From Panagrolaimus kolymaensis (Eukaryota; Nematoda; Chromadorea; Rhabditida; Panagrolaimidae): a stretch of DNA of 64,000 bases. A program made the translations under genes and the position numbers. The stretch's first letter is position 1. Each line of letters starts with the position of its first letter. Below, piece after piece: positions 6,316-33,853 of this stretch. Location of the stretch: contig JAJQJQ010000011.1 in the NCBI GenBank assembly GCA_028622995.1, positions 558,001 through 622,000 on the forward strand, given 5' to 3'. The notes under the pieces are model-generated. The model worked only from the letters and a program-made list of their open reading frames with translations, was not told where the DNA came from and ran no database searches.

Positions 6316-7862
6316 ATGGCTACGAGTCAACATACTGGTAGTGGAACATTACGAGGTGGTGGTGTTAAACGAGTTTATGGAAATATGGCGGTAAGAATAT
6401 TTTTGTAAATTTGTCTTAGGCGATCCATAATTAAGCTATATTTATTTTTAGTCATTGAAGCAATATAAAGAAAAAATTGATTATCGTTTACCATTGGTAT
6501 CAATAATTTGTTTAGCTTCAATTGCATCCATTTTATTTTTATATGGTTTATATCAATTAAAAGGACACGATACTCTTGTAGAATATGTCAAAAATACACG
6601 AGATATTGTACGGGTAAGGTTAGCTTTATTTAATTTCAAGCAAGGCTTTATTAAACCCTAATAATTTAAGTTCGTCACCGATCCGAGAAATAAACGAGCT
6701 ACTTCTGAAAATGGCGGAGAATTTGTTGAACCTTTGGCCGAACCAGGGGATGAAAATCCATCAGAAGAAATCAAAGAGGCTGTGGAAGCCAAAGCCACGG
6801 AAGCAACCATCATATCCGAATCGAAAGATGAAGAAAGAACCGAAAGACCGATATTAATTTTTGATAATGAAACAACATTATCGACCACCACCACAACAAC
6901 AACAACGACAACAAATATTTTATTATTAACGACAAATGCGACTACTATTAACGAAACGATAATAACAACTCCTATTGTAATTTTAACGACAACTACGACC
7001 CCATTAGGACCTGAATGGCTTACACTTGCAGAATTGGATGATTATCATGATCGATTAGTTGGTGTAAGTTTTTGAGCCTTGAGTGAAAAAACAAAAGCTA
7101 ATTATTTTATCTTTATAAATATATTACCCCTTCTTAACACTTTTTTAACATATTTCAGACTTATAAAACAATTTGGAATCTTTTTGCAATAAATATTATT
7201 GCCCTTCTTTTTCTTCTCCCTGCAACAATCCTCTTTCATCTTGATTCATTTGGAATTAATAAATATAAAACCATTTTTCGAGTTATCGTGTTTTTACTTT
7301 TGCTATTTTTCTTTATTCAACTTTTCTACCTTATTAGCCCAATTTTTACTTCAACTTCACGTTTTCCCGATATGGTGGATCGACTTTTTGATCCAATAAC
7401 TAAACCCAAACATGAAAGAGGTATTGGAGAAATAAAAGATACATTTGCATGCGAATTTGATACTCATCCAGAATTAATTGCACGTGGATTTCAAGTGAGT
7501 ACAGTAATTCTTTTATGTAAGGAAGAAAATTTCTTTCAGGATCCATGTGTACCCAAAATCAAAGATAGCCTTTTCCCAGCGTATGCCAGCGTTTTTCTAA
7601 TTTTATTTGATCTTTTACCATTTATTTTTGTTGCATTTACATATGCATGGGATGCATGGGTTAAAGATTGCACTCATGTTCGTGAAGCTCGAATGAGAGT
7701 TGAATTAAATAACCAACGAAGGCCTCAAACTCGTGAAGAAATTCTTCAACATGCAATTGAATCTCAAAATTGGTAAACTTTTTTACGAGGAAATCGAACA
7801 AACTAAAATTAAAAAATTGTTGATTTTTTAGGTCACGAAATTCTGCCGATCATTTTGTGTAA
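6316..7862 (+). CDS. Four-pass membrane protein with Thr-rich loop
   Basis: Six exons (6316-6390, 6452-6613, 6671-7063, 7159-7494, 7540-7772, 7832-7862) give 409 residues with all phases consistent. Hydrophobic segments lie at about residues 35-56 (LPLVSIICLASIASILFLYG), 215-235, 250-270 and 335-360 (FPAYASVFLILFDLLPFIF). Between the first and second is a long acidic, then Thr-rich stretch including ten consecutive Thr, likely extracellular and O-glycosylated (inference). The C-terminal tail is charged. No family recognised with certainty. The inverted duplication begins inside exon 4 at 7372, so only exons 4 (part) to 6 are repeated at 21918-22408. This is the only complete copy. Confidence 0.82.
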
Positions 7863-8259
7863 GCACCTGGTTCTACGACACCTTTATGTATATTTTTATG
7901 AGATTTTTGACAATATTTGTTTGAAAAATAGTAATACGATATTTTTTTTTATTATAATAAAGTGTTGGAAATATAAACTATTATTTACTAACAACTACAT
8001 AGAATGAATGGATAACGCTGTCAGAACAAAGTTCAAAATCAAAGCCAAAAAAACGAACCAAAGAAGTAACACAAAATACCAACAACAAAAAATTTGGCAG
8101 CGTTCAAAAGCGGCACGAAACAAAAAACACAAAAATGCAAATTTAAAAGACTTTTTTATTCATTTCTCGAAATAATTTTCAAAAATACATATTTACAGAA
8201 TCAATAAGCAGCTAGAAGAAAAGACAAAGCAGAATCAGATTAGTTAGTTAATATATTCT
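7863..8259. other. 3' intergenic between convergent genes
   Basis: A short spacer between the convergent membrane-protein and STMP1-like genes. It has AATAAA-type signals on the plus strand near 7959 and TTTATT on the other strand near 8155. No coding signal. Confidence 0.5.
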
Positions 8260-8412
8260 TCATTCACTCTTTCGATATTGCTCGACATATTGTTCAATTT
8301 TTTTCTGAATTTCACATGGCGATGGCACTTTTGGTACTTCATAATTTTGAGTTGCATAAGCTCCAACATAAGCACCAATTGTAAGAGAGATGAAATGTGT
8401 TGCTAGACCCAT
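8260..8412 (-). CDS. stmp1: STMP1-like short transmembrane mitochondrial microprotein (copy 1)
   Basis: One 50-residue frame, missed by ORF calling at 60 codons. It has a hydrophobic N-terminus (FISLTIGAYVGAYA), then QNYEVPK and a charged helix (IQKKIEQYVEQY). Short transmembrane mitochondrial protein 1 has the same plan: about 47 residues, a Gly-containing N-terminal helix, the signature GxYxAQNYxxP, then a Lys/Glu-rich tail. Known vertebrate members sit in the mitochondrial inner membrane and interact with respiratory complexes (established for the family, inferred here). A splice acceptor (TTTTTCAG) lies upstream at 8482-8489, so a 5' leader intron or trans-splicing is likely. The inverted copy is at 21368-21520 and is identical. 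Confidence 0.75.
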   Translation of the reverse strand: MGLATHFISLTIGAYVGAYATQNYEVPKVPSPCEIQKKIEQYVEQYRKSE

Positions 8413-8500
8413 TAATGATATATTCAATCTTCAGAAAATTCTATAGAAATCAGAGCAAGACGATGAAATGAAGGATATAAGCCTGAAAAATGAAACAAAG

Positions 8501-9234
8501 TGTTAGGCTCCGGCGTTCTACAGTACGTTAATTTCAGATTTTATCCACACCGGCTTGTGCACTGCAGGCAAGACCGGGCAAAGCAACTGCAGCTCACTCT
8601 AACTTGGTAACAAGCCAACCAGCCATCTAACTCTCCCTCTCTCTCTTCATATGCGACCATCCAAGTGCATGCGCACTCACTCCCTTATTGGTCAAAGCCA
8701 GCTGCCTTGCAAGTACTGACACTCTTGCAAAACCAACCAACCGGGTGCAGCAAAGCCAACAATGGATAGTATTATTGTGAATATATTAAAGCATTCTGAA
8801 ACAACTGACTCTCAATCCCTTTTATTATTCTGAAACAACTGGCGCCGCGTACCATTATTGAAGTGCATCGTCAAGCCATTCATTGCCGAAGGAAAGACTA
8901 TTTAAGAAGCAGCCGTTGTACCACTTATTTGTCGAAGGTTTCCATTCTAAAGACTCTCCCAAGTAGAGCACAATCAGTCGAGGCATAGAAGCCCGATGTA
9001 GTTAACAAGCTAGCACATGTATCCAAGTCTCCCCATGTTTATCTCTGTAATTCCAGTAATCTCTGATCAGTTTGGTGTGAATGTAATCTTTATATCTGTA
9101 TTTATGTTTATGTATTTATTTATATGAAGGATCGTTATCATAAAGTTTGCCTGTAGTTAATATAATATCTTGACTCGTCTGACCTCAAACAAACGTAGGA
9201 AGGTGTTCAGTCGACGGAATACCGGTACCTAACA
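8501..9234. mobile_element. Solo-LTR-like element (copy 1), 734 bp, AAAG target duplication
   Basis: Starts TGTTAGGCTCCGGCGTTC and ends in the imperfect reverse complement (GGTACCTAACA region), so it has TG...CA ends inside a roughly 19-bp inverted repeat. It is flanked by AAAG at 8497-8500 and AAAG at 9235-9238, a 4-bp target duplication. Base composition is richer in GC than its surroundings. It contains a 15-bp direct repeat (8793-8807, 8827-8841) and no long ORF. Best read as a solo LTR of a retrotransposon; a non-autonomous DNA transposon is the alternative because the terminal repeat is longer than usual for an LTR. Confidence 0.72.
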
Positions 9235-10001
9235 AAAGAAATTATAAAAAAACAAAGCAAAAATTAGGATTTTCACGCTTATTATTATTATTATTTTTTA
9301 CTAACAAATAATTCATAAAAGAAAAGGAAGCAAAAAAATATATAAAAACTTTTGCGGTCGGAAGGAAGTAAAAATATATTTGTGCGAGCAAAAAAGAAAA
9401 AAAAGGGCGCCAAAAAACAACAAATTTATAGGAAGGAACATGGTAATTGCCTTTTCGAAAATTTCTTTTGCCTGAATGCCTGAAAGATGAAGAAAAAAAG
9501 GTCTGGGCAACGGCGCAAAATTCAAGCATCATTTACTTGCTTCGTTCGTTTTCTTGATTCATTTATTTGCTTCATTTTTTGTTTTCTTGTTGAATTTTTT
9601 GATGATGTTTGATTGAAATGTTGTTATTTTTCTTGTATTTTGTTCAACTTTGATTATGTTTTGACTTGTTTCTAAGAATAGGATTCGGCAATAAAAGGAG
9701 GGTAGCAAATGGAATAATCAATGAATGCTTTTATTTTGTGATGAATGAAAACAAAAAATAGGAAGAAAAGTGCAATTTTAAACTCTTTGAGAGTTCAGTA
9801 TTTTCTTTTTTAGTTTATCTATTTTTTTATATAAAAAAAAGGAAAAAAATGTTTATTAAAGATTCACAGAAACAACAATAATTATTTTAAAAATATTTAA
9901 TAGTCGAACGATTGAAGATACACAAACATGTCAAAAAAAATCGACCAAAGAAAATTTTTTGTCTCCGCATTTTACAACATTTTTTGAGATAAACATAAAC
10001 T
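9235..10001. other. Intergenic, no gene seen (copy 1)
   Basis: A/T tracts and short low-complexity frames only (for example Phe-rich frames around 9242-9532). Repeated in inverted form at 19779-20545. Confidence 0.55.
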
Positions 10002-10803
10002 TTAAAGGTAATCACCAAATTCAGCAAAAGGATGATTCTGAAATAAAAAGTAATAAGTAAAAAATACAAAACTAACTTCTTTTAAAAAGCTTTACCTTTT
10101 TAAATTTCAAAAAATGTTGAGATTTTAAAAAATCTATTGGAATATCTTTGCCAATACACATTGACATTAAATTTGGAAAGAAAAGCGATTCAGCCATTTT
10201 CTCTGCGGTTTCTATGGTAAAAACTTGTGAATCGACTTTATTACTAAATAATAAATGGTTATTTTACTTTCATAAAAAAACTTACTATTCAAACTTTCTA
10301 ATCAATGGAAGCTTTTCAAGAATTTCAGCAAGCTCAACCCAATTTCCATTCGAATATTTTATTGACGAATTATAAAAATAAAAGTTTTCCACTTTACCAG
10401 CCATTATTAAAAATAATAATTCATTGTAAAACAAATTTTGATGCCAGAAATTTAATTTTTTGACATTAACGTAACCCAATTTGGGAAAAACATAGTCGAA
10501 TGCATTTGGAATATCAATGGAAAGCATTTCTTCGATAATCCATATTTTTGCAAAATTTTCTTCAAGTTCAATGTTAAAGTTTTCACTAAAAGTATCCAAA
10601 CTTTCAGCAATAACGACGGATGATTTCGTCAAAAAATATTTGCATGATTTGATTAACTTTTGATAAACAAATGGCGAAGCATTTTTTGAAAGGTAATAAA
10701 CAATGTTTTCAGGAAGAGTAAATTTTTGATGAATAAAGTTCTTCAGCAATTTTGTTGAAAACCTTTTATAATTTTTTGTATAAATCGGCACAACAAAATC
10801 CAT
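10002..10803 (-). CDS. F-box-like nematode protein (copy 1)
   Basis: Three exons (10286-10803, 10096-10243, 10002-10037) give 233 residues with matching phases. An F-box-like segment lies at about residues 28-65: LPENIVYYLSKNA, then SPFVYQKLIKSCKYF, which has the Leu-Pro start and the C-K-x-F end typical of F-box helices. The rest is rich in Phe, Asn and Lys without a second recognised domain. Nematodes carry large families of such F-box-like proteins, usually substrate receptors of SCF ubiquitin ligases; this one's role is inferred from that. The very short last exon (12 codons with stop) is supported by a TTTCAG acceptor. Identical to the copy at 18977-19778. Confidence 0.72.
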
Positions 10804-11734
10804 CGTTATAGTAATCGAGGATGAAAAAAAAAATCAACAACACAATAAAAAATCAATCAATGAGAAAAATAACGCAAATGTCTTTGGTCAAGTCAAATCA
10901 AAAAAAATTCTTTATTAACGATTTTTTGGATGTGTGTAAAAAAATGCCAAAAGCCCTTAAAGAATGTTCTTCTATAGCACATGCCTTTATGTAAGTTAAA
11001 AAAAGCTATGCATCATTGCAAAAAGTGTTGAGAGAATGAGAATAAAACAAACAATCGATTTTTCTAACTGCAGTACTTTTCTAAATCGATGACCTCTATT
11101 AATGGTTGGTTAACAACACAATGTTCATTTTTCAGTAAAATAATATGTATTTGTTGCTTACTTTAACCTTTGCCTAAACAAAAAATTTAAATTATTAAAA
11201 TTTGAAAAAAAACTATAGGTAATTACTGTAATTACAACTGTCATTCATGAATTCATCCACAAAGCATCATTCCAATGCAGCTAAGTTTGTTGAAATTAAT
11301 AAGTTTATAAACATTTTGTTAAATCTTGGTGCAAATTTAATGTACTTTAAAACTATCATAGTGATAAATAAATGTTATAAACAAGTTGAAGTAAAACACC
11401 CTTTCAGTAAAATAATTTCTTTTATTTTTGTTTTTGGTAATGAGAATAAAAAAAAATACTATATTTATTAAAAAATGTAATACAAAGCAAATGTTTTTTT
11501 TCTTTTTAATTAAATTGTTAAAACAAAACTAAAGCTAGCCGGTTTAACCAAATAAATTCTGGGACATTCATCTATGCCAAAGCTAAAAATATGCAAGCGT
11601 CGAAGTTGGAGTTTAAAGAAAAGTGTAAAATTGTTGAAAATAAAAAAAAGTAAAAAATATTGAAAGCATCGTCGTTTTTTGTTTATTTGGTTGTTTATTT
11701 ATTTTCCGATTTGAAATATAATAGGTGCTTTATA
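10804..11734. other. Intergenic, no gene seen (copy 1)
   Basis: Upstream of the F-box-like gene and downstream of the PDZ gene. A 74-codon plus-strand frame at 11247-11471 has no splice-supported extension and no recognisable motif. The AATAAA signals near 11694-11703 (minus strand) belong to the PDZ gene. Confidence 0.5.
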
Positions 11735-13541
11735 TTAATTATCAGCTCCTACAGCATGTGCAATTCGTTTCAAGCTTGAACTTTGTGGAGTAGGAGAACG
11801 ATGGCGAAGACCTTGCTCTTCTTCAGCAATCAATCGACGAGTTGCTGAATCCAAATATGCTGGGCGATTATTTCGAGGATAATCGCCACTAAAAGAATGA
11901 AAGAGAATTAAAGGAAAGCCACAATATGAACTCACTCAATAGGCAAATCTTGTCCTGTTTGCATTTTATATGCTTCAGCTGCAGCTTCGGGAGAATACAT
12001 TCCAAGGGGAGAATTATATTGTAAATGAGCCACAGTGGCATGTGGAGATAATTCACGAACAGTTCGAGGGCTTCGAGTATAATATGCTCGAGGACCTAAA
12101 ATTTTATGGAATGAATGAAAGATAATAACTAAAATATAGCTACTGGTGTTTAAAATTTCTCGGAAATACATGTTTACTATCTTTATTTATTTTTTAGTTT
12201 TACGATTTCACTTACCATCATAATGCGTTGGAGTTGTGCTTTGTCCACGATTTGGTGTGGTACTTTTATTTCGATAAACTGCATGAGAGCCAGGATATCC
12301 ACTATCTTGTCCATGATATTGCCCACCACCTCCACTTTGAGGGCTTTGCATTGTAACATGCTTACCTTGTCCTTGACCACCTTGTCCTGAACCATAACCA
12401 CCTTGGCCTTGATTTTGTCCCCATTGGGCATTTCCACTTCCACTGCCACCATAATTTCCACCTTGACCACCTTGTCCACTTTGTCCCCAACCTTGGGTGT
12501 TACTTCCTTGGCTCCAATTTTGTTGTTGTTGTTGGTTGCTTTGGTTTTGATTCCATGATGAACTATTATTTCCTCCACTTTGATTAACTTTATGCGATGG
12601 ATCCCATTCGCCTGTGGATGCATTTTGGTTCCAATTAACATTAGAATAATATCCATTTGGGCGGCCACCACCGCTCCCACCGCCACTTTGTTGATTTTGT
12701 TGTTGTTGTTGCCAACTATTATTACCAGTGGATGAAAAATTATTTGAAATTTGATTATTGGCGGATGAAAATCCTTGTGAACCATGATTAAATGGAGCAG
12801 CACTGGAAGAACCAATAGTTCCACCACCACCTGCTGGAGCAATGTTGGAGGATTCTGTTCGAGTATAAGTTCGATTAGTTTCATAATGCTTTTTAATATT
12901 TCCTTCATCTTGATCCCAATTTGAATTTGATTCACTTTTAACTGTATTGGAAAATGGAAGGTTTTCGTTATTAACATTGGTTGTTAATGGAGCTGGACCT
13001 TCACGAGTTTCAGTGCGTTTGAAATTTGTAATTTTTCTAACTTCTTCCGAGAATGGTGCTGCTGCATTTCCAAGGGATTGGGTTGATTTAAAGGAATTTT
13101 GGTAACCTGCAGTGTTCTGAAAACTGTGGAGTAAAAAAAACTTTCTCTTATTAGTCATTTTAAAATTCATTAGAAAATGCTACAAACCTGATCGCTAACA
13201 CCACTAACTCGACCAGAATTATCAAAATGATTTACAACTATTTGATTTCCCTTTTCATCCAAACTCCATGGCAAACTTGGTGGATGCGCAATAAAACGTT
13301 TCAAATTCATTGAAACTTCATTTCCACTTTGAATGCGACTTTGAGCATCATTTAAATTTTGTGGTTTCATACCAAAAACTTGTTCAACGGTATCTCCAAC
13401 TTTGACTCCAGCTTTATCAGCCATGGAATCGGCTTGTACGAAAGAAATGGCTAAAGTATTTCCTTGTTGGCGCAATTGAAATCCCCATTGAATTGTTGGA
13501 TTTGAACGGGTCATTCGAACATTAATATTTTCATACGCCAT
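11735..13541 (-). CDS. alp-1: ZASP/ALP-type PDZ protein without LIM domains (copy 1)
   Basis: Four exons (13188-13541, 12216-13116, 11936-12095, 11735-11888) give 522 residues. The N-terminal PDZ domain spans about residues 8-85 with carboxylate-binding loop QWGFQL. A long Gln/Asn/Gly/Ser-rich linker (about 165-385) includes poly-Gln. A ZASP-like motif follows in exon 3 (AHLQYNSPLGMYSPEAAAEA), then a short basic tail ending at a stop. PDZ plus ZM proteins of the ALP/Enigma family bind alpha-actinin at Z-discs and dense bodies (known for the family). No LIM domain is present in or after the last exon, as in insect Zasp66-type members. An in-frame GTAAGC in exon 2 could allow alternative splicing. 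Head-to-head with its identical copy at 16239-18045; the start ATG is shared by all three exon 1 copies. Confidence 0.88.
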
Positions 13542-14540
13542 GATTTTAAGGAAAATTTTAGTTTAAAAAGGCGTTAATTTTTTTTCGTCGTTGTTCGATG
13601 TCACTAAAAAGTTAAAAGTTTAAGTAATTGTGGGAAGCAAAAAATGGTAAGAATGAACGCGATTTTGAAGATATTAAAAAATATGAAAGATTTAAATCGA
13701 TAACAGAAGTCTTTCATCAACCATGCTCAAAAATAAAGTTACTTTCTAAAAATAATTACATCCTCAAAAAATTGCAAGAATTTGACTACTTTCATAATAA
13801 AAGTTTTTAAAAATGAGAAATGTTGTTTTTTTATTGCAAATTTTTTATAATCAAAACATCTGGAATTTTATGTTTCTTCAGCTGAAAAAATATCAAAGAA
13901 AAAATCATAATGTTTTCTTTTGCAAAATAAAAAACATAAACTTTAGGTTATCTTTTTTTGTTTGTGGTGGATAAACCTTTTTCTTGTTGAAAATGAAAAA
14001 ACGTTTGTTGGAGAAAAAGCACGCAAAAAAAGAAGATAGAGCAAAGGCAAAATGTCAGTGGTTTTGAGGTGAAGAAGCAAACAGCGCCCACGCTTCAAAA
14101 ATGTATGTATGTTAGTTAAGTGACTGATTAGCGAAGATAACCATAAAAACAAAACTAATAAAAAAAATTTATGTTAGATTTTAAATTGGCGGATTTATTA
14201 AAGAAAAATATTTTAAAAATCAGATAAGAAAATGAAAAAAAAACCATTCAACATTTTGAAGTTCGGGCAATTGTTGAAAAAAGCATGGAAAGTTTAATAT
14301 AAAAATTAATTCGCTAAAAATTATAATAATAGTCAAAGTAATATCAAAAAGCATTGACAAATATTTTTAAAAAATTTATGCGATATGATATTTTCCAAAT
14401 TGCTTCAACAGAAAAGCTGAACTAAGAAGCTACAGTATTCATTCGGGGGAAAAAGAGATATATAAAAAAAACCATTAAAATCCATAAAAATTAATTTCAA
14501 AAAAATTAACATAAACCAAAATTTAAACTTTGAAAATCAA
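13542..14540. other. Upstream region of PDZ gene, no gene seen (copy 1)
   Basis: Promoter-proximal DNA of the PDZ gene up to the transposon-like inverted repeat. Short frames at 13628-13810 (plus) and 13943-14152 (minus) lack splice or family support. This block occurs three times in the window (also 15240-16238 inverted and 22738-23736 direct). Confidence 0.5.
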
Positions 14541-15239
14541 ATTAGTGCACAAGATTACTATGTAAAAAAACAAAAGGCTGTTCAGGAAAAAACTTTTAGA
14601 CGGTTGAAGAGATTAAATTTTAATTGATTTGGCTTTTAGACGGCTAATGAGATTAAATTTTTTTTATTGATTTCAATAAATTATTTTATATGTTACACTG
14701 AAACAAACAGCCGCAGCACCGTCTTCGATTTTTAACAGTAAAAAAATTTTTGGTCCGACAATTAGTTATATTTAAATTTTTTGCTTAAAATACCTTTTTT
14801 CAAACATGCTTTGTTTCAGAAAACAATAGAAAATTGGAAAAAAAAACTAAAAATTTTATTTTGTAATTGACCTTATAATTATTATTTTTTTCAATTTACA
14901 CCAAAACATTTTTTACATCAAAAATCTTGCGAATATACGAGTTGCTTTTACATCTTATCTAATCAAGAATAAAACAAAATTTTTAATTTTTAACATTTTT
15001 AAAAAAATTTTTCAATATTAAATAGTTGGTAAAGAAGTTGGGTAATAACAATCGAAGACGGTGCTGCGGCTGTTTGTTTCAGTGTAACATATAAAATAAT
15101 TTATTGAAATCAATAAAAAAAATTTAATCTCATTAGCCGTCTAAAAGCCAAATCAATTAAAATTTAATCTCTTCAACCGTCTAAAAGTTTTTTCCTGAAC
15201 AGCCTTTTGTTTTTTTACATAGTAATCTTGTGCACTAAT
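14541..15239. mobile_element. Transposon-like element with 190-bp terminal inverted repeats, right end missing
   Basis: Perfect inverted repeats 14541-14730 and 15050-15239 enclose a 319-bp non-palindromic loop (14731-15049). Each arm holds two 40-bp subterminal units starting CTTTTAGACGG (14593-14632 and 14633-14672 on the left). No transposase frame; a MITE-like element is the best reading. The copy at 23737-24450 carries 15 further bases on the right ending GAGCCGTCTG. Here those bases are absent because the sequence turns back into the inverted arm at 15240. Confidence 0.75.
14731..15049. other. Non-palindromic spacer at the centre of the inverted duplication
   Basis: 319 bp without symmetry between the two arms. 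The same sequence occurs in the same orientation at 23927-24245, which shows that the third copy spans the centre. Confidence 0.9.
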
Positions 15240-16238
15240 TTGATTTTCAAAGTTTAAATTTTGGTTTATGTTAATTTTTTTGAAATTAATTTTTATGGAT
15301 TTTAATGGTTTTTTTTATATATCTCTTTTTCCCCCGAATGAATACTGTAGCTTCTTAGTTCAGCTTTTCTGTTGAAGCAATTTGGAAAATATCATATCGC
15401 ATAAATTTTTTAAAAATATTTGTCAATGCTTTTTGATATTACTTTGACTATTATTATAATTTTTAGCGAATTAATTTTTATATTAAACTTTCCATGCTTT
15501 TTTCAACAATTGCCCGAACTTCAAAATGTTGAATGGTTTTTTTTTCATTTTCTTATCTGATTTTTAAAATATTTTTCTTTAATAAATCCGCCAATTTAAA
15601 ATCTAACATAAATTTTTTTTATTAGTTTTGTTTTTATGGTTATCTTCGCTAATCAGTCACTTAACTAACATACATACATTTTTGAAGCGTGGGCGCTGTT
15701 TGCTTCTTCACCTCAAAACCACTGACATTTTGCCTTTGCTCTATCTTCTTTTTTTGCGTGCTTTTTCTCCAACAAACGTTTTTTCATTTTCAACAAGAAA
15801 AAGGTTTATCCACCACAAACAAAAAAAGATAACCTAAAGTTTATGTTTTTTATTTTGCAAAAGAAAACATTATGATTTTTTCTTTGATATTTTTTCAGCT
15901 GAAGAAACATAAAATTCCAGATGTTTTGATTATAAAAAATTTGCAATAAAAAAACAACATTTCTCATTTTTAAAAACTTTTATTATGAAAGTAGTCAAAT
16001 TCTTGCAATTTTTTGAGGATGTAATTATTTTTAGAAAGTAACTTTATTTTTGAGCATGGTTGATGAAAGACTTCTGTTATCGATTTAAATCTTTCATATT
16101 TTTTAATATCTTCAAAATCGCGTTCATTCTTACCATTTTTTGCTTCCCACAATTACTTAAACTTTTAACTTTTTAGTGACATCGAACAACGACGAAAAAA
16201 AATTAACGCCTTTTTAAACTAAAATTTTCCTTAAAATC
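15240..16238. other. Upstream region of PDZ gene, no gene seen (copy 2)
   Basis: Inverted copy of 13542-14540. It separates the transposon-like centre from the second PDZ gene, so the two PDZ genes diverge from a shared 2.7-kb interval. Confidence 0.5.
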
Positions 16239-18045
16239 ATGGCGTATGAAAATATTAATGTTCGAATGACCCGTTCAAATCCAACAATTCAATGGGGATT
16301 TCAATTGCGCCAACAAGGAAATACTTTAGCCATTTCTTTCGTACAAGCCGATTCCATGGCTGATAAAGCTGGAGTCAAAGTTGGAGATACCGTTGAACAA
16401 GTTTTTGGTATGAAACCACAAAATTTAAATGATGCTCAAAGTCGCATTCAAAGTGGAAATGAAGTTTCAATGAATTTGAAACGTTTTATTGCGCATCCAC
16501 CAAGTTTGCCATGGAGTTTGGATGAAAAGGGAAATCAAATAGTTGTAAATCATTTTGATAATTCTGGTCGAGTTAGTGGTGTTAGCGATCAGGTTTGTAG
16601 CATTTTCTAATGAATTTTAAAATGACTAATAAGAGAAAGTTTTTTTTACTCCACAGTTTTCAGAACACTGCAGGTTACCAAAATTCCTTTAAATCAACCC
16701 AATCCCTTGGAAATGCAGCAGCACCATTCTCGGAAGAAGTTAGAAAAATTACAAATTTCAAACGCACTGAAACTCGTGAAGGTCCAGCTCCATTAACAAC
16801 CAATGTTAATAACGAAAACCTTCCATTTTCCAATACAGTTAAAAGTGAATCAAATTCAAATTGGGATCAAGATGAAGGAAATATTAAAAAGCATTATGAA
16901 ACTAATCGAACTTATACTCGAACAGAATCCTCCAACATTGCTCCAGCAGGTGGTGGTGGAACTATTGGTTCTTCCAGTGCTGCTCCATTTAATCATGGTT
17001 CACAAGGATTTTCATCCGCCAATAATCAAATTTCAAATAATTTTTCATCCACTGGTAATAATAGTTGGCAACAACAACAACAAAATCAACAAAGTGGCGG
17101 TGGGAGCGGTGGTGGCCGCCCAAATGGATATTATTCTAATGTTAATTGGAACCAAAATGCATCCACAGGCGAATGGGATCCATCGCATAAAGTTAATCAA
17201 AGTGGAGGAAATAATAGTTCATCATGGAATCAAAACCAAAGCAACCAACAACAACAACAAAATTGGAGCCAAGGAAGTAACACCCAAGGTTGGGGACAAA
17301 GTGGACAAGGTGGTCAAGGTGGAAATTATGGTGGCAGTGGAAGTGGAAATGCCCAATGGGGACAAAATCAAGGCCAAGGTGGTTATGGTTCAGGACAAGG
17401 TGGTCAAGGACAAGGTAAGCATGTTACAATGCAAAGCCCTCAAAGTGGAGGTGGTGGGCAATATCATGGACAAGATAGTGGATATCCTGGCTCTCATGCA
17501 GTTTATCGAAATAAAAGTACCACACCAAATCGTGGACAAAGCACAACTCCAACGCATTATGATGGTAAGTGAAATCGTAAAACTAAAAAATAAATAAAGA
17601 TAGTAAACATGTATTTCCGAGAAATTTTAAACACCAGTAGCTATATTTTAGTTATTATCTTTCATTCATTCCATAAAATTTTAGGTCCTCGAGCATATTA
17701 TACTCGAAGCCCTCGAACTGTTCGTGAATTATCTCCACATGCCACTGTGGCTCATTTACAATATAATTCTCCCCTTGGAATGTATTCTCCCGAAGCTGCA
17801 GCTGAAGCATATAAAATGCAAACAGGACAAGATTTGCCTATTGAGTGAGTTCATATTGTGGCTTTCCTTTAATTCTCTTTCATTCTTTTAGTGGCGATTA
17901 TCCTCGAAATAATCGCCCAGCATATTTGGATTCAGCAACTCGTCGATTGATTGCTGAAGAAGAGCAAGGTCTTCGCCATCGTTCTCCTACTCCACAAAGT
18001 TCAAGCTTGAAACGAATTGCACATGCTGTAGGAGCTGATAATTAA
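16239..18045 (+). CDS. alp-1: ZASP/ALP-type PDZ protein without LIM domains (copy 2)
   Basis: Exons 16239-16592, 16664-17564, 17685-17844 and 17892-18045 encode the same 522 residues as the left copy: PDZ, Gln/Asn/Gly-rich linker, ZM motif and short tail. All splice sites, the start and the AATAAA about 35 bases after the stop are retained, so the copy looks fully functional. Because the arms match, both copies should be expressed unless the shared divergent promoter interval behaves differently from the ancestral one. Confidence 0.88.
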
Positions 18046-18976
18046 TATAAAGCACCTATTATATTTCAAATCGGAAAATAAATAAACAACCAAATAAACA
18101 AAAAACGACGATGCTTTCAATATTTTTTACTTTTTTTTATTTTCAACAATTTTACACTTTTCTTTAAACTCCAACTTCGACGCTTGCATATTTTTAGCTT
18201 TGGCATAGATGAATGTCCCAGAATTTATTTGGTTAAACCGGCTAGCTTTAGTTTTGTTTTAACAATTTAATTAAAAAGAAAAAAAACATTTGCTTTGTAT
18301 TACATTTTTTAATAAATATAGTATTTTTTTTTATTCTCATTACCAAAAACAAAAATAAAAGAAATTATTTTACTGAAAGGGTGTTTTACTTCAACTTGTT
18401 TATAACATTTATTTATCACTATGATAGTTTTAAAGTACATTAAATTTGCACCAAGATTTAACAAAATGTTTATAAACTTATTAATTTCAACAAACTTAGC
18501 TGCATTGGAATGATGCTTTGTGGATGAATTCATGAATGACAGTTGTAATTACAGTAATTACCTATAGTTTTTTTTCAAATTTTAATAATTTAAATTTTTT
18601 GTTTAGGCAAAGGTTAAAGTAAGCAACAAATACATATTATTTTACTGAAAAATGAACATTGTGTTGTTAACCAACCATTAATAGAGGTCATCGATTTAGA
18701 AAAGTACTGCAGTTAGAAAAATCGATTGTTTGTTTTATTCTCATTCTCTCAACACTTTTTGCAATGATGCATAGCTTTTTTTAACTTACATAAAGGCATG
18801 TGCTATAGAAGAACATTCTTTAAGGGCTTTTGGCATTTTTTTACACACATCCAAAAAATCGTTAATAAAGAATTTTTTTTGATTTGACTTGACCAAAGAC
18901 ATTTGCGTTATTTTTCTCATTGATTGATTTTTTATTGTGTTGTTGATTTTTTTTTTCATCCTCGATTACTATAACG
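18046..18976. other. Intergenic, no gene seen (copy 2)
   Basis: Inverted copy of 10804-11734; same contents (PDZ-gene polyadenylation signals, F-box-like gene upstream region). Confidence 0.5.
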
Positions 18977-19778
18977 ATGGATTTTGTTGTGCCGATTTAT
19001 ACAAAAAATTATAAAAGGTTTTCAACAAAATTGCTGAAGAACTTTATTCATCAAAAATTTACTCTTCCTGAAAACATTGTTTATTACCTTTCAAAAAATG
19101 CTTCGCCATTTGTTTATCAAAAGTTAATCAAATCATGCAAATATTTTTTGACGAAATCATCCGTCGTTATTGCTGAAAGTTTGGATACTTTTAGTGAAAA
19201 CTTTAACATTGAACTTGAAGAAAATTTTGCAAAAATATGGATTATCGAAGAAATGCTTTCCATTGATATTCCAAATGCATTCGACTATGTTTTTCCCAAA
19301 TTGGGTTACGTTAATGTCAAAAAATTAAATTTCTGGCATCAAAATTTGTTTTACAATGAATTATTATTTTTAATAATGGCTGGTAAAGTGGAAAACTTTT
19401 ATTTTTATAATTCGTCAATAAAATATTCGAATGGAAATTGGGTTGAGCTTGCTGAAATTCTTGAAAAGCTTCCATTGATTAGAAAGTTTGAATAGTAAGT
19501 TTTTTTATGAAAGTAAAATAACCATTTATTATTTAGTAATAAAGTCGATTCACAAGTTTTTACCATAGAAACCGCAGAGAAAATGGCTGAATCGCTTTTC
19601 TTTCCAAATTTAATGTCAATGTGTATTGGCAAAGATATTCCAATAGATTTTTTAAAATCTCAACATTTTTTGAAATTTAAAAAGGTAAAGCTTTTTAAAA
19701 GAAGTTAGTTTTGTATTTTTTACTTATTACTTTTTATTTCAGAATCATCCTTTTGCTGAATTTGGTGATTACCTTTAA
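18977..19778 (+). CDS. F-box-like nematode protein (copy 2)
   Basis: Exons 18977-19494, 19537-19684 and 19743-19778 encode the same 233 residues as the left copy, with the F-box-like LPENI...SCKYF segment at residues 28-65. Start, splice sites and stop are intact. Confidence 0.72.
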
Positions 19779-20545
19779 AGTTTATGTTTATCTCAAAAAA
19801 TGTTGTAAAATGCGGAGACAAAAAATTTTCTTTGGTCGATTTTTTTTGACATGTTTGTGTATCTTCAATCGTTCGACTATTAAATATTTTTAAAATAATT
19901 ATTGTTGTTTCTGTGAATCTTTAATAAACATTTTTTTCCTTTTTTTTATATAAAAAAATAGATAAACTAAAAAAGAAAATACTGAACTCTCAAAGAGTTT
20001 AAAATTGCACTTTTCTTCCTATTTTTTGTTTTCATTCATCACAAAATAAAAGCATTCATTGATTATTCCATTTGCTACCCTCCTTTTATTGCCGAATCCT
20101 ATTCTTAGAAACAAGTCAAAACATAATCAAAGTTGAACAAAATACAAGAAAAATAACAACATTTCAATCAAACATCATCAAAAAATTCAACAAGAAAACA
20201 AAAAATGAAGCAAATAAATGAATCAAGAAAACGAACGAAGCAAGTAAATGATGCTTGAATTTTGCGCCGTTGCCCAGACCTTTTTTTCTTCATCTTTCAG
20301 GCATTCAGGCAAAAGAAATTTTCGAAAAGGCAATTACCATGTTCCTTCCTATAAATTTGTTGTTTTTTGGCGCCCTTTTTTTTCTTTTTTGCTCGCACAA
20401 ATATATTTTTACTTCCTTCCGACCGCAAAAGTTTTTATATATTTTTTTGCTTCCTTTTCTTTTATGAATTATTTGTTAGTAAAAAATAATAATAATAATA
20501 AGCGTGAAAATCCTAATTTTTGCTTTGTTTTTTTATAATTTCTTT
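19779..20545. other. Intergenic, no gene seen (copy 2)
   Basis: Inverted copy of 9235-10001; low-complexity frames only. Confidence 0.55.
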
Positions 20546-21279
20546 TGTTAGGTACCGGTATTCCGTCGACTGAACACCTTCCTACGTTTGTTTGAGGTCA
20601 GACGAGTCAAGATATTATATTAACTACAGGCAAACTTTATGATAACGATCCTTCATATAAATAAATACATAAACATAAATACAGATATAAAGATTACATT
20701 CACACCAAACTGATCAGAGATTACTGGAATTACAGAGATAAACATGGGGAGACTTGGATACATGTGCTAGCTTGTTAACTACATCGGGCTTCTATGCCTC
20801 GACTGATTGTGCTCTACTTGGGAGAGTCTTTAGAATGGAAACCTTCGACAAATAAGTGGTACAACGGCTGCTTCTTAAATAGTCTTTCCTTCGGCAATGA
20901 ATGGCTTGACGATGCACTTCAATAATGGTACGCGGCGCCAGTTGTTTCAGAATAATAAAAGGGATTGAGAGTCAGTTGTTTCAGAATGCTTTAATATATT
21001 CACAATAATACTATCCATTGTTGGCTTTGCTGCACCCGGTTGGTTGGTTTTGCAAGAGTGTCAGTACTTGCAAGGCAGCTGGCTTTGACCAATAAGGGAG
21101 TGAGTGCGCATGCACTTGGATGGTCGCATATGAAGAGAGAGAGGGAGAGTTAGATGGCTGGTTGGCTTGTTACCAAGTTAGAGTGAGCTGCAGTTGCTTT
21201 GCCCGGTCTTGCCTGCAGTGCACAAGCCGGTGTGGATAAAATCTGAAATTAACGTACTGTAGAACGCCGGAGCCTAACA
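20546..21279. mobile_element. Solo-LTR-like element (copy 2)
   Basis: Reverse complement of 8501-9234, with the same TGTTAGG...CCTAACA ends and a CTTT duplication on both sides (20542-20545, 21280-21283). It was carried along by the segmental duplication, not inserted independently: the flanks are the same. Its right edge lies 19 bp before the splice acceptor of the STMP1-like gene. Confidence 0.72.
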
Positions 21280-21367
21280 CTTTGTTTCATTTTTCAGGCT
21301 TATATCCTTCATTTCATCGTCTTGCTCTGATTTCTATAGAATTTTCTGAAGATTGAATATATCATTA

Positions 21368-21520
21368 ATGGGTCTAGCAACACATTTCATCTCTCTTACA
21401 ATTGGTGCTTATGTTGGAGCTTATGCAACTCAAAATTATGAAGTACCAAAAGTGCCATCGCCATGTGAAATTCAGAAAAAAATTGAACAATATGTCGAGC
21501 AATATCGAAAGAGTGAATGA
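21368..21520 (+). CDS. stmp1: STMP1-like short transmembrane mitochondrial microprotein (copy 2)
   Basis: Identical 50-residue frame to the left copy: N-terminal hydrophobic helix, QNYEVPK signature, charged tail. The 5' leader exon begins after the TTTTTCAG ending at 21298. Likely mitochondrial inner-membrane microprotein by family membership. Confidence 0.75.
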   Translation: MGLATHFISLTIGAYVGAYATQNYEVPKVPSPCEIQKKIEQYVEQYRKSE

Positions 21521-21917
21521 AGAATATATTAACTAACTAATCTGATTCTGCTTTGTCTTTTCTTCTAGCTGCTTATTGATTCTGTAAATATGTATTTTTG
21601 AAAATTATTTCGAGAAATGAATAAAAAAGTCTTTTAAATTTGCATTTTTGTGTTTTTTGTTTCGTGCCGCTTTTGAACGCTGCCAAATTTTTTGTTGTTG
21701 GTATTTTGTGTTACTTCTTTGGTTCGTTTTTTTGGCTTTGATTTTGAACTTTGTTCTGACAGCGTTATCCATTCATTCTATGTAGTTGTTAGTAAATAAT
21801 AGTTTATATTTCCAACACTTTATTATAATAAAAAAAAATATCGTATTACTATTTTTCAAACAAATATTGTCAAAAATCTCATAAAAATATACATAAAGGT
21901 GTCGTAGAACCAGGTGC
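21521..21917. other. 3' intergenic (copy 2)
   Basis: Inverted copy of 7863-8259; polyadenylation-type signals only. Confidence 0.5.
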
Positions 21918-22408
21918 TTACACAAAATGATCGGCAGAATTTCGTGACCTAAAAAATCAACAATTTTTTAATTTTAGTTTGTTCGATTTCCTCGTAAAAA
22001 AGTTTACCAATTTTGAGATTCAATTGCATGTTGAAGAATTTCTTCACGAGTTTGAGGCCTTCGTTGGTTATTTAATTCAACTCTCATTCGAGCTTCACGA
22101 ACATGAGTGCAATCTTTAACCCATGCATCCCATGCATATGTAAATGCAACAAAAATAAATGGTAAAAGATCAAATAAAATTAGAAAAACGCTGGCATACG
22201 CTGGGAAAAGGCTATCTTTGATTTTGGGTACACATGGATCCTGAAAGAAATTTTCTTCCTTACATAAAAGAATTACTGTACTCACTTGAAATCCACGTGC
22301 AATTAATTCTGGATGAGTATCAAATTCGCATGCAAATGTATCTTTTATTTCTCCAATACCTCTTTCATGTTTGGGTTTAGTTATTGGATCAAAAAGTCGA
22401 TCCACCAT
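21918..22408 (-). pseudogene. 3' half of the four-pass membrane-protein gene, truncated by the junction
   Basis: Contains part of exon 4 (22286-22408), exon 5 (22008-22240) and exon 6 (21918-21948) of the gene at 6316-7862, all sequence-identical. Exons 1 to 3 and the first membrane segments are missing. It begins at codon ATG of the sequence MVDRLFDP by chance and has no promoter of its own. The third copy of the PDZ exon 1 is fused directly upstream on the same strand. Confidence 0.88.
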
Positions 22409-22737
22409 CCAGAATTATCAAAATGATTTACAACTATTTGATTTCCCTTTTCATCCAAACTCCATGGCAAACTTGGTGGATGCGCAATAAAACGTTTCAA
22501 ATTCATTGAAACTTCATTTCCACTTTGAATGCGACTTTGAGCATCATTTAAATTTTGTGGTTTCATACCAAAAACTTGTTCAACGGTATCTCCAACTTTG
22601 ACTCCAGCTTTATCAGCCATGGAATCGGCTTGTACGAAAGAAATGGCTAAAGTATTTCCTTGTTGGCGCAATTGAAATCCCCATTGAATTGTTGGATTTG
22701 AACGGGTCATTCGAACATTAATATTTTCATACGCCAT
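22381..22737 (-). pseudogene. Chimeric ORF: PDZ-gene exon 1 fused out of frame to membrane-protein exon 4
   Basis: The first 110 residues equal the PDZ protein (the complete PDZ domain, to NHFDNSG). After the junction at 22408/22409 the frame runs into membrane-protein exon 4 in the wrong frame, adds WWIDFLIQ and stops, giving 118 residues. The PDZ-gene promoter region is present upstream, so transcription is plausible. Downstream donor and acceptor sites of exons 4 to 6 could be spliced, leaving a premature stop and probable nonsense-mediated decay. If the message survives, the product would be a PDZ-only fragment able to compete with the full protein (inference). Confidence 0.85.
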
Positions 22738-24435
22738 GATTTTAAGGAAAATTTTAGTTTAAAAAGGCGTTAATTTTTTTTCGTCGTTGTTCGATGTCAC
22801 TAAAAAGTTAAAAGTTTAAGTAATTGTGGGAAGCAAAAAATGGTAAGAATGAACGCGATTTTGAAGATATTAAAAAATATGAAAGATTTAAATCGATAAC
22901 AGAAGTCTTTCATCAACCATGCTCAAAAATAAAGTTACTTTCTAAAAATAATTACATCCTCAAAAAATTGCAAGAATTTGACTACTTTCATAATAAAAGT
23001 TTTTAAAAATGAGAAATGTTGTTTTTTTATTGCAAATTTTTTATAATCAAAACATCTGGAATTTTATGTTTCTTCAGCTGAAAAAATATCAAAGAAAAAA
23101 TCATAATGTTTTCTTTTGCAAAATAAAAAACATAAACTTTAGGTTATCTTTTTTTGTTTGTGGTGGATAAACCTTTTTCTTGTTGAAAATGAAAAAACGT
23201 TTGTTGGAGAAAAAGCACGCAAAAAAAGAAGATAGAGCAAAGGCAAAATGTCAGTGGTTTTGAGGTGAAGAAGCAAACAGCGCCCACGCTTCAAAAATGT
23301 ATGTATGTTAGTTAAGTGACTGATTAGCGAAGATAACCATAAAAACAAAACTAATAAAAAAAATTTATGTTAGATTTTAAATTGGCGGATTTATTAAAGA
23401 AAAATATTTTAAAAATCAGATAAGAAAATGAAAAAAAAACCATTCAACATTTTGAAGTTCGGGCAATTGTTGAAAAAAGCATGGAAAGTTTAATATAAAA
23501 ATTAATTCGCTAAAAATTATAATAATAGTCAAAGTAATATCAAAAAGCATTGACAAATATTTTTAAAAAATTTATGCGATATGATATTTTCCAAATTGCT
23601 TCAACAGAAAAGCTGAACTAAGAAGCTACAGTATTCATTCGGGGGAAAAAGAGATATATAAAAAAAACCATTAAAATCCATAAAAATTAATTTCAAAAAA
23701 ATTAACATAAACCAAAATTTAAACTTTGAAAATCAAATTAGTGCACAAGATTACTATGTAAAAAAACAAAAGGCTGTTCAGGAAAAAACTTTTAGACGGT
23801 TGAAGAGATTAAATTTTAATTGATTTGGCTTTTAGACGGCTAATGAGATTAAATTTTTTTTATTGATTTCAATAAATTATTTTATATGTTACACTGAAAC
23901 AAACAGCCGCAGCACCGTCTTCGATTTTTAACAGTAAAAAAATTTTTGGTCCGACAATTAGTTATATTTAAATTTTTTGCTTAAAATACCTTTTTTCAAA
24001 CATGCTTTGTTTCAGAAAACAATAGAAAATTGGAAAAAAAAACTAAAAATTTTATTTTGTAATTGACCTTATAATTATTATTTTTTTCAATTTACACCAA
24101 AACATTTTTTACATCAAAAATCTTGCGAATATACGAGTTGCTTTTACATCTTATCTAATCAAGAATAAAACAAAATTTTTAATTTTTAACATTTTTAAAA
24201 AAATTTTTCAATATTAAATAGTTGGTAAAGAAGTTGGGTAATAACAATCGAAGACGGTGCTGCGGCTGTTTGTTTCAGTGTAACATATAAAATAATTTAT
24301 TGAAATCAATAAAAAAAATTTAATCTCATTAGCCGTCTAAAAGCCAAATCAATTAAAATTTAATCTCTTCAACCGTCTAAAAGTTTTTTCCTGAACAGCC
24401 TTTTGTTTTTTTACATAGTAATCTTGTGCACTAAT
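22409..24435. repeat. Third, direct copy of 13213-15239
   Basis: Offset is exactly +9196. It starts inside PDZ exon 1 without shared bases at the join and covers the PDZ upstream region, left terminal repeat, 319-bp loop and right terminal repeat of the central element. It ends at 24435, where the sequence continues into unique DNA instead of turning back. Confidence 0.95.
22738..23736. other. Upstream region of PDZ gene, no gene seen (copy 3)
   Basis: Direct copy of 13542-14540. It should carry the PDZ-gene promoter and drive the chimeric ORF at 22381-22737. Confidence 0.5.
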
Positions 24436-24450
24436 CTCTTGAGCCGTCTG
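23737..24450. mobile_element. Transposon-like element with long terminal inverted repeats, right end complete
   Basis: Inverted repeats 23737-23926 and 24246-24435 around the 319-bp loop. The right side continues 15 bases (24436-24450, ending GAGCCGTCTG) with a third relative of the subterminal AGACGG unit, so the true terminus is probably CAGACGGCTC in the outward orientation. The left side lacks this terminal stretch. No transposase. No clear target duplication because the left end is truncated. Confidence 0.65.
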
Positions 24451-25635
24451 CAACAATAATTACTAGAAACTCCGCTGCCTCCGGTCGGCGATCTTACTTG
24501 TTTTATTGAAAAATACAAAATTGCCACTCGTATTAATGCCTATGTTTTAATAATTACTTTTCCAAAAAGTTATTGTATTGACTTTTATAAAAATTAAAAC
24601 TTTTCCCGAACAATCTTATCACTCGTGTCTATTTTAATCACTTAATTTTCAATAATGAGATCCTAAAAATTGAAACATGTGTAAGCCTTTAAAACTCTTT
24701 TTTGGCAAAAATCTAAAGAAAAAAAGTTTTTCGGTCTAATTTTATTGGGTTCTTGAATTGATCAGAAGCTAATTAACTTTTCCGATGATTTTGCCTTTTC
24801 TACTTATTGCACTTTAACAAAAAAAGTTATAACGGTTACTTTTTTTTTGCACGAATCAAAATAAACAATGAACTGAACCATTAAAAAAAATTTATACCAG
24901 CTTGTGAAAAATTCGCAAAAAGTTAAGGTTATAGTCATCGAGCAAGCTTACAATAGTTAAATCACTTAATTTGCGCAGCAAGCAAACCCATGTTTTGCTG
25001 ATTTTTTATGTATATGAAAATTACCCAAATCATTTCATCGCGCTTGGAAAACAAAATATAGTTTCATTCTAATTTATGCAAATTTTTTAGGTGAATTTCC
25101 TATTTTAATATAAAAGATTTCAAGATAAGATACAAAAAAACAGAGAGAAAAAGAATAATAATATGTATGGGAAATAGCGAAGCCTAGTAGCCCTGGGACT
25201 GCGACCAAAAGTAATCGAAAACGAACGAACAATAAAAATTAATAAGAAGGAAATATTCAAGTTACTTTTCGATTAAAATCACCGAAAATAATAAAAAAAG
25301 TTCCCTATGTTTATTCTTTTCATAAACTAAACGTCAGCGTACTTTTAATTAAATTTTGCGTTTAGAATACCTAAAAGTTTTGTATGCTAATCCAATTAAA
25401 TTTAGAAAAAAAAATATACGATCCAAAAGCTTAGTTAAAAAAAATTTCATTGAAAATCGTTAAAAATAATTTCGCTTTAATTTCATAATAAAGAAACTTA
25501 ATATTCATAAAAAAAGTAAAATTTGTGAATATTTTATTAAAAATTTGCATATTTTCTAATGAAAACATTATTAAAAATCATAAAAAATTATTTGGATATA
25601 ATTGTCTCAATTCAATTAAAACAATTTATTAAAAA

Positions 25636-25712
25636 AAGTTGTGGGGATTCGAACCTATGACAGAAATATCCTAACATCACCGCCTTCAACGCCTACGCCA
25701 CACAGCAAATGT
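25636..25712 (-). other. Degenerate tRNA-like or tRNA-derived SINE fragment
   Basis: On the minus strand an A-box-like TGGCGTAGGCG is followed about 45 bases later by a perfect B-box GGTTCGAATCC, the internal promoter of RNA polymerase III genes. Acceptor-like ends (GCTGTG / CACAAC) pair with one mismatch, but the T stem has only two pairs and the anticodon stem does not close. A working tRNA is therefore unlikely; a tRNA pseudogene or SINE head fits better. Confidence 0.4.
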
Positions 25713-26084
25713 ATAACAAGGAACTTTAGCCAATGATATTTTTACTCTAAATCAAAATATTTAAATTTCCATAGCGGCATACATCTATTTTTATGTGATG
25801 TTTTTTAAAGTTAGCTTACTCATAGAGGTAATTGAGGGTGGAGAAAACGATTTTTATAGCCAGAATATGCGTTAACTTTGCTGCAACGCTCAGCGGGACA
25901 TTGTGAACTTTTAAAATGTTGTGATTAAGCACTTTTTTTCTATACTTCCTTCTATTTTTTTTAAAAATTCGTCAATGCGACGAAAAATTGACCCTAGAGA
26001 GCCCTCTAATATCAACATAATTACACGAAATAAAAAAAATCATAAATTTCGGTTAGCAGATCGGGCGTTCTCATTGCTAAAACA

Positions 26085-26115
26085 GCCGCACCCCTCGCTT
26101 CGCTCGGGGTGCGGC
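26085..26115. other. GC-rich perfect hairpin
   Basis: GCCGCACCCC and GGGGTGCGGC form a 10-bp stem around an 11-base loop (TCGCTTCGCTC), in DNA that is otherwise strongly AT-rich. No coding context. It could be part of a repeat or a structured element. Confidence 0.6.
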
Positions 26116-33643: not shown

Positions 33644-33853
33644 TTAAATATTTAATTTTCTCGTTGAGCTAATCTTTCCTCTATCATTTTTTATCCAAGG
33701 TTTTATAACCCAAATTTTTCGGAGAGATATAATTATATAATGATCTCCACTGTGCTTATTGACATGGTTCTGGAAACTTTTATCTACCTTTCTTTTTAAT
33801 TCGTTTTGTGCTTCCGCCATTTTTTGAAAACCAATGGTTAGCTTTCTTTCCAT
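33644..33853 (-). CDS. Possible small 69-residue protein, unsupported by homology
   Basis: An ATG-initiated frame with more balanced amino-acid use than other frames in this region (MERKLTIGFQKMAEAQNELK start, charged and helical). The stop is followed about 45 bases later by an AATAAA on the same strand. No recognised family, no introns. Could be chance. Confidence 0.25.
   Translation of the reverse strand: MERKLTIGFQKMAEAQNELKRKVDKSFQNHVNKHSGDHYIIISLRKIWVIKPWIKNDRGKISSTRKLNI

Follow-up and report, generated by a model that had tools for sequence, protein, structure and literature searches.

How a segment of about 7 kb came to be followed by its own inverted copy, and then by part of itself once more, is the question raised by a stretch of Panagrolaimus kolymaensis DNA (assembly GCA_028622995.1, contig JAJQJQ010000011.1, positions 558,001 to 622,000), which is 64,000 nucleotides long and is called the window below. 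At this locus, on contig C10, the order of segments is A-B-H-B'-A'-B-H-element body-flank, whereas both homoeologous loci, on contigs C4 and C22, have A-B-flank. The features of the window are as follows, with primes marking the inverted copies.

7372..13212, plus strand: segment A, native first copy (5841 bp), identical to 16568-22408 reversed and collinear with C4 and C22 save for local indels
13213..14540, plus strand: segment B, native first copy (1328 bp), in triplicate on C10 and single on each of C4 and C22
14541..15239, plus strand: H, first copy (699 bp), turning point of the palindrome, from sequence comparison and folding
15050..15239, plus strand: interval of junction 1, distal to the sole informative mismatch at 15049
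15240..16567, minus strand: segment B, second copy, inverted (sequence identity)
16568..22408, minus strand: segment A, second copy, inverted (sequence identity)
22408..22409, no strand: junction 2, where A' (7372) is joined bluntly to B (13213), from the junction sequences
22409..23736, plus strand: segment B, third copy, direct (sequence identity)
23737..26119, plus strand: complete Helitron-like element, H (23737-24435) and body, from copies elsewhere, the right end and the T flank
26120..37829, plus strand: native right flank, collinear with C4, and with C22 to 35007, the end of the C22 stretch compared

Sequence comparison showed that 7372-14540 is the reverse complement of 15240-22408, identical at 7169 of 7169 bp, and that 13213-15239 recurs as a direct copy at 22409-24435 (2027/2027 bp). 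The direct, inverted and direct order of 7372-24435 given in an earlier, sequence-only reading is thus exact to the base, and its three copies of 13213-14540, with the middle one inverted, and two of 7372-13212 are borne out by the same identities. As assembled, the window contains A twice, B three times and H twice, a copy profile of 1-2-3-2-1 in which the triplicated segment is inverted in its middle copy. The rearrangement added 9196 bp of DNA and left a full palindrome with 7.2-kb arms intact. Such a repeat structure of A, B and H is far beyond chance. No mutations were seen in the duplicated DNA in either full-length copy comparison. The near-perfect identity itself was correctly noted, but the very recent event that it was taken to imply is less certain, since gene conversion is able to homogenize the arms of a palindrome (PMC7953838).

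Only two of the joins are novel; 7371/7372 and 13212/13213 are native and are present on C4 and C22. Junction 1 lies in the right arm of H, beyond 15049, because the first H matches the native H at every base, including 15049. Junction 2 (22408/22409) has 0 bp of homology and no insert. One join within 190 bp of inverted repeat and one blunt join had been proposed, and both were recovered.

The homoeologs provide the ancestral allele for which a search had been suggested, and they do so within the same assembly. C4 and C22 are collinear with C10 through 7371-14542 and again from about 26120, without duplication; the element site is empty on both, and B was counted 3:1:1 on C10, C4 and C22 by sequence search. 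Judged from these sequences, the plain order is apparently the ancestral one, and the C10 arrangement is taken as derived because of the collinearity, the empty site and the 3:1:1 count. The assembly looks polyploid, with one rearranged locus on C10 and two sister loci.

H consists of 194-bp inverted ends with a single mismatch (14731 versus 15049) and a 311-bp loop. Folded as single-stranded DNA it reaches -249.7 kcal/mol, whereas 20 shuffled versions average -65.1. The inverted repeat of the supposed transposon hairpin is present, but it is not an isolated hairpin: H is the self-complementary left end of a larger Helitron-like element of 2383 bp (23737-26119). A stand-alone MITE was ruled out, as all 37 complete H copies sampled outside the window run on into the element body. 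The DNA after 24435, previously described as unique, is not; 24436-26119 is the repeat body, for which the best 40 of 315 search candidates all match, 39 of them outside the window. Element copies elsewhere are mostly 99-100% identical. The exact right end occurs 254 times in the assembly, with T as the next base in 218, and T also follows the right end in 14 of 16 element copies retrieved. A GC hairpin, GCCGCACCCC...GGGGTGCGGC, is located at 26085-26115, with 4 nt between it and the end of the element.

Canonical Helitron termini are TC...CTRR. The element resembles non-autonomous Helitrons and Helentrons in its GC-rich right-end hairpin, in the strong preference for T directly 3' of the right end, and in that no target-site duplication was seen at the empty sites of C4 and C22 (by eye, in AT-rich DNA with a few differences). 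It differs from them in its 699-bp fold-back left end and in its termini, which depart from TC...CTRR. No protein of its own was detected in 23737-26119. Helitron proteins are abundant in the assembly (the 150 best of 426 candidates were all above the cut-off, many with long open reading frames); however, no autonomous partner with these ends was found, as none of the 136 right ends listed (100 of the 218 T-flanked and all 36 others) lies less than 27 kb from the 150 listed protein matches, the smallest distance being 27.8 kb.

The 37 complete H copies outside the window are a sample of at least 254 elements. In 5 of the 37, H is flipped relative to the element body, and exchange between the arms of H thus seems to occur at other copies, as far as these sequences indicate. 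None of the 37 is the centre of a palindrome, their mirrored flanks matching at 10-21 of 60 bases, although 25 were viewed with at most 1.5 kb of flank, where a more distant second H would escape notice. On this count H could seed palindromes only rarely, if at all. In 20 sampled 10-kb stretches (200 kb of 266 Mb; 16 picked for carrying the element and 4 being homoeologs), the only inverted repeat that reached 200 bp at 90% was an H.

We give roughly even chances to an origin of the inverted triplication through two template switches in DNA copying, after insertion of the element beside B. The Helitron-like element would first have inserted there. At a broken or stalled fork, a 3' end would then have come to lie within 15050-15239, the right arm of H. 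Annealing of this arm to the complementary left arm, either by snap-back on the same strand or on the sister, would have primed synthesis in reverse through B and A as far as 7372. There the end may have come off its template and, with no microhomology, resumed at 13213 of the sister; synthesis through B, H, the body of the element and the flank would have given back a normal chromosome. The joins may also have arisen in reverse order, reading from right to left; the sequence fits either. The sister rather than a homoeolog is the probable template because both homoeologs are without the element.

Origin by two switches is supported by the exact structure, the derived state and the 3:1:1 copies of B, by the location of the turn, which falls at a 194-bp inverted repeat that folds very strongly, and by the apparent arm exchange in 5 of the 37 other H copies. 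It is also supported by the blunt join, which connects two points within the same 7-kb locus, an outcome not often expected from random ligation or a scaffolding error; a chimera of either kind was rejected on this ground, and solo recombination between element copies was excluded by the lack of element sequence at junction 2. In human DUP-TRP/INV-DUP cases (PLP1, MECP2), the first of the two joins likewise falls in an inverted repeat, and the second mostly shows short homology (microhomology in 14 of 16, blunt in 2 of 16; PMC4352052), which adds further support. The same origin is weakened by the 0 bp at 22408/22409, where the microhomology usual for template switching, and expected of FoSTeS/MMBIR at the non-recurrent join, is absent, as well as by the lack of mutation in the new DNA and of palindromes at the 37 other H copies. 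It is weakened, too, by the report in PMC9484634 that amplification polymerases turn around at inverted repeats in vitro in just this way.

That last point leads to the possibility, which we consider unlikely but real, that the turn at H and the second switch both happened during whole-genome amplification or library preparation and that the resulting double chimera was carried into the assembly, the true order being A-B-element-flank. Two chimeric joins in one molecule would be needed, with enough support to enter the contig, and neither the 37 other H copies, among at least 254 elements, nor the 20 sampled stretches revealed further palindromes or inverted repeats, apart from the one H. On the other hand, amplification polymerases switch templates at inverted repeats, and reads consisting of inverted repeats made up as much as 50% of the long reads in some MDA reactions, a figure that PMC9484634 quotes from another paper. 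An artefact would yield perfect identity, and searches with 6800-7800 and 12900-14500 gave no second contig of the C10 allele. Published palindrome lists are also said to include misassemblies (PMC7953838, in part). Fold-back reads from missed adapters or fragment ends were rejected as a source, as their turn would fall randomly and cut the loop of H, which is complete and in native orientation.

A biological alternative, which we regard as doubtful and less probable than the artefact, is a larger inverted triplication between H and an inverted repeat to its left (by ODIRA or breakage-fusion), from which a later end-joining deletion joined 7372 to 13213. The final sequence would be the same: one inverted-repeat join and one blunt or near-blunt join are predicted by such trimming (PMC10766186), and a return point inside the inverted tract with a blunt second join is readily accounted for, at the cost of an extra step and of a presumed left turn that was lost. 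The repeats in ODIRA, according to the same excerpt, are about 5 nt long and 40-80 nt apart, whereas the arms of H measure 194 bp and lie 311 bp apart; ODIRA also involves two turns, at inverted repeats on either side of an origin, and C10 shows one. It is hardly probable that the structure is a by-product of transposition, in which the 3' end of B was released by a Helitron-type nick at the left end of the element and then folded back while H was being copied. The palindrome is indeed centred on the left end of an element with a right-end hairpin and a T-adjacent insertion without visible target duplication, in an assembly with at least 150 Helitron protein matches, but junction 1 can be placed within a 190-bp stretch of H's right arm and not at the nick site itself, no autonomous partner was found for the 136 listed right ends of 254, and none of the 37 other complete copies sampled is a palindrome centre. 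Very improbable too is the wider idea that a rolling-circle transposon amplifies genes by way of the nick made for its own transposition, through snap-back at a 0.7-kb hairpin, reverse copying of the neighbouring gene and re-entry on the sister, so that an asexual polyploid nematode would gain inverted gene copies without sex. If this were true, the untouched homoeologs would serve as built-in controls.

Returning to the two template switches, the DUP-TRP/INV-DUP signature proposed by the sequence-only reading holds in its two-junction pattern and fails in its classical order and unique flank. In the classical form, the return join falls beyond the inverted tract and the proximal segment is duplicated in direct orientation (four table rows of PMC4352052), while on C10 the return point at 13213 falls 5.8 kb inside the inverted tract 7372-14540, A is duplicated in inverted orientation and a palindrome with 7.2-kb arms remains. 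Shared with the human cases in that text are the 1-2-3-2-1 profile, the two joins, of which one is in an inverted repeat and one of low homology, and the inverted middle copy. On C10, however, the inverted repeat is a transposon end, where the human cases have low-copy repeats, the host is a nematode, and the 9 kb added compare with duplications of 145-458 kb in the four human rows. The C10 structure is best read as a variant within this class and not as its classical form.

Yeast ODIRA triplications, as described in part of PMC10766186, share the turn at an inverted repeat, the palindromic product and the possible removal of one turn by end joining; they differ from C10, with its 194-bp repeats, 311-bp loop and only one turn. 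A limited survey in the same source did not turn up a human case whose palindromic arms were unambiguously intact, whereas C10 has kept its palindrome whole. In yeast and humans, fold-back inversions (PMC7467729, PMC10622511 and PMC3907307) also produce inverted duplications through hairpin or fold-back priming, but on C10 the chromosome regained its own flank through a second join. Palindromes have been counted in asexual Meloidogyne, one in M. incognita and three in M. arenaria (PMC5465968 and PMC7953838, in the parts available). Like C10, these and other palindromes of parthenogens are inverted duplicated blocks on a single contig; they are collinear at the level of genes and show homoeolog-like divergence, whereas the C10 copies are 100% identical, with base-resolved joins and ancestral alleles in the assembly. 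A limited literature search found no nematode precedent for such a rearrangement, the sole nematode-related match among those listed being a centromere review, and none of the matches listed linked Helitrons with template switching.

If the structure is real, it provides an inverted triplication resolved to the base, in an organism other than man or yeast, in which the seeding hairpin, the palindrome and two ancestral alleles are all preserved. A high-copy mobile element would then be tied to local gene amplification in an apparent asexual polyploid, where changes in copy number may matter for adaptation, and with more than 250 copies of the element the rate of such events could be counted in long-read data. 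If it is an artefact, it flags a trap for the study of palindromes in assemblies.

The gene content of the repeated DNA includes a PDZ-domain exon (13179-13541, minus strand; Pfam), which lies mostly within B and for which a homologue search gave two proteins with at most 93% identity. A LIM-motif scan aimed at the 3' part of the PDZ gene was negative, and no tRNAs were found. On C10, two intact copies of the exon stand head-to-head across H, and a third is truncated at 22408 by the blunt join.

Self-comparison recovered, exact to the base, the segments that a sequence-only reading of this DNA had mapped. With A for 7372-13212, B for 13213-14540, H for 14541-15239 (699 bp) and primes for inverted copies, the order on C10, the contig bearing the window, is A B H B' A' / B H as assembled. 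All 7169 bases of 7372-14540 are identical to the reverse complement of 15240-22408, and all 2027 bases of 13213-15239 are identical to 22409-24435. H has inverted ends of 194 bp, with a single mismatch (14731/15049), and a loop of 311 bp; folded as single-stranded DNA it gives -249.7 kcal/mol, whereas 20 shuffles average -65.1. Since the middle H equals the native H including position 15049, the homologous turn is confined to 15050-15239, within the inverted repeat as had been read. The A'/B join at 22408/22409 was likewise correctly read as blunt, having zero bases in common with either parent sequence across it. The DNA beyond 24435, previously called unique, is a repeat body copied across the genome. 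The rearrangement stands as assembled, not as proven.

Most of a PDZ-domain exon (Pfam PDZ and PDZ_6) lies within B on the minus strand. It begins with a methionine, is apparently the first coding exon, and occurs as follows.

Copies of the PDZ exon in the window
13179-13541, minus strand: complete copy, head to head across H with 16239-16601
16239-16601: complete copy, head to head across H with 13179-13541
22408-22737: third copy, cut at the A'/B join, where the predicted frame continues into a few foreign residues

A search of the assembly (265.8 Mb, 807 contigs; window G+C, 30.2%) found three homoeologous copies of the locus, on C10 and on contigs C4 and C22; these features would fit a polyploid nematode. 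Positions 6800-7800 matched both palindrome arms on C10, C4 at 97% and C22 in two pieces (92% and 98%), with no further match elsewhere in the assembly; 12900-14500 matched B three times on C10 and once each on C4 and C22, with a weak 49-bp match on contig C46. The stretches on C4 and C22 start upstream of 7372 and are collinear with the window up to 14542 and again beyond about 26120, at 87-94%; at the aligned locus both lack the element, the palindrome and the extra B. The ancestral allele, for which comparison had been proposed, is thus represented by empty-site homoeologs in the same assembly, and the C10 order is therefore derived. Because H is central and present twice, the rearrangement dates with or after the element insertion. 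An insertion of about 0.83 kb, found only on C10 among the three alleles, lies in both palindrome arms (8500-9333 and 20447-21280) and is therefore older than the palindrome; 735 bp of it recur with 100% identity at C29:321220-321954, and the insertion is probably another recent mobile sequence. The C22 homoeolog (L019, 4546-4903) is longer by about 357 bp at window position 7500, adjoining the left border; this added stretch contains a short direct repeat.

H and the next 1684 bp, the body, form one element (23737-26119, 2383 bp) with a GC-rich hairpin at its right end, 4 nt from the terminus. Among the best 40 of 284 candidates for 14000-15500, which includes H, H was found at at least 38 places outside the window; for 24436-26000, 39 of the best 40 of 315 candidates lay outside. 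Identity was 97-100% among the matches listed. Of 41 element sites retrieved from outside the window, 37 have a complete H, always with the body attached, and the remaining four a cut or rearranged one. The genome contains 254 exact matches to the 29-base right end, of which 218 precede a T and 36 another base; a reversed control pattern has 0 matches. No target duplication was seen at the two empty sites, within the limits of AT-rich, slightly differing flanks. Helitron proteins are abundant, all of the best 150 of 426 candidates scoring above the cut-off; many of these Helitron_like_N matches score equally and have open frames 1400-1900 aa long, which suggests a Helitron burst that is recent and may still be under way. 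For the 136 right ends with a listed position, the nearest listed Helitron protein match was always more than 27 kb away, so that no autonomous partner was found. Canonical Helitron termini are TC...CTRR, which the element ends do not match; for both reasons, "Helitron-like" denotes likeness, not class assignment.

The 60 bases on either side of the 37 complete H copies elsewhere were compared as mirror images. Between 10 and 21 of 60 were mirrored, against perfect arms at the middle H of the window, and no further palindrome centre was seen at these 37 copies, of at least 254 elements. The window palindrome is centred on an extra H 9 kb from the body-attached H, not on the latter itself; 25 of the 37 copies had at most 1.5 kb of flank, so that a distant extra H would escape, and no such palindrome occurs in the 10-kb stretches around the other 12. 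Five of the 37 (L039, L040, L047, L050, L056) have H flipped with respect to the body, and in two incomplete copies (L031, L033) it is partly flipped; exchange between the inverted arms seems to occur. The 20 fetched 10-kb stretches contained one inverted repeat reaching 200 bp and 90%, itself an H; this sample, 200 kb of 266 Mb mostly picked for the element, says little on the whole assembly.

A two-join route is the simplest path from A B H flank to A B H B' A' / B H flank. In the first join copying would reverse direction at the inverted ends of H, either because a 3' end snapped back or because it moved to the complementary arm. The second would link 7372 bluntly to 13213, with the sister as the likely template, given that the homoeologs are devoid of the element and diverge by about 10%. 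The two template switches of the duplication/inverted triplication/duplication class (DUP-TRP/INV-DUP), as first proposed, agree in their joins with the human two-step scheme of PMC4352052, where the first join lies in inverted repeats and the second arises via MMBIR or end joining, with microhomology in 14 of 16 second joins and a blunt junction, as here, in 2 of 16. The return point does not agree: in four complete table rows of that paper the proximal duplication begins outside the triplication, whereas the C10 restart falls 5841 bp inside the inverted tract, so that A is duplicated in inverted orientation and a complete palindrome with 7.2-kb arms is left. A larger inverted triplication, later trimmed by end joining (PMC10766186), would explain no less well why the second join is blunt and why it lands inside the inverted tract, but it requires an extra event that left no trace and is therefore given about one third the weight of the two-switch path. 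According to that paper, its limited survey turned up no human case in which the palindromic arms were unambiguously intact.

A sequencing or assembly artefact appears rather unlikely, though far from negligible. Amplification polymerases turn at inverted repeats (PMC9484634), and the palindrome list for asexual animals in PMC7953838 includes misassemblies according to its authors; however, an artefact would need double chimerism, the blunt join links points of the same locus, and nothing alike was seen at the 37 other H copies. Gene-level palindromes, one in M. incognita and three in M. arenaria, were counted earlier (PMC5465968, PMC7953838).

The near-perfect identity that had suggested a very recent event holds, with zero differences in 9196 duplicated bases; by the rule of three, divergence is then under about 3 in 10,000. 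At the C. elegans mutation rate of 2.7e-9 per base and generation this would correspond to less than some 60,000 generations, but gene conversion between the palindrome arms could mask a greater age.

The large contigs differ greatly in how many exact right ends of the element they carry. The T-flanked list, which covers C1-C23 in full, holds 16 on C1, 13 on C11 and 12 each on C10 and C13; C2, C3, C7 and C20 have zero in both lists, C17 has one (non-T list), and C4 and C22 have one each. Possibly the element labels one of the two parental subgenomes of a hybrid. Some copies are embedded in tandem satellite arrays (L007/L008, L027, L029) whose periods are about 141 and 151 bp, and two C1 copies separated by 4.5 kb, which share 99.7% identity across 3707 bp of element and satellite, are a local duplication. 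The body is about 144 bp shorter than the window copy (at about element positions 958-1101) in 25 of the 41 fetched places (L035, L036, L004-L008 and others); the longer body occurs in 16, of which 14 were retrieved by searching with the long body.
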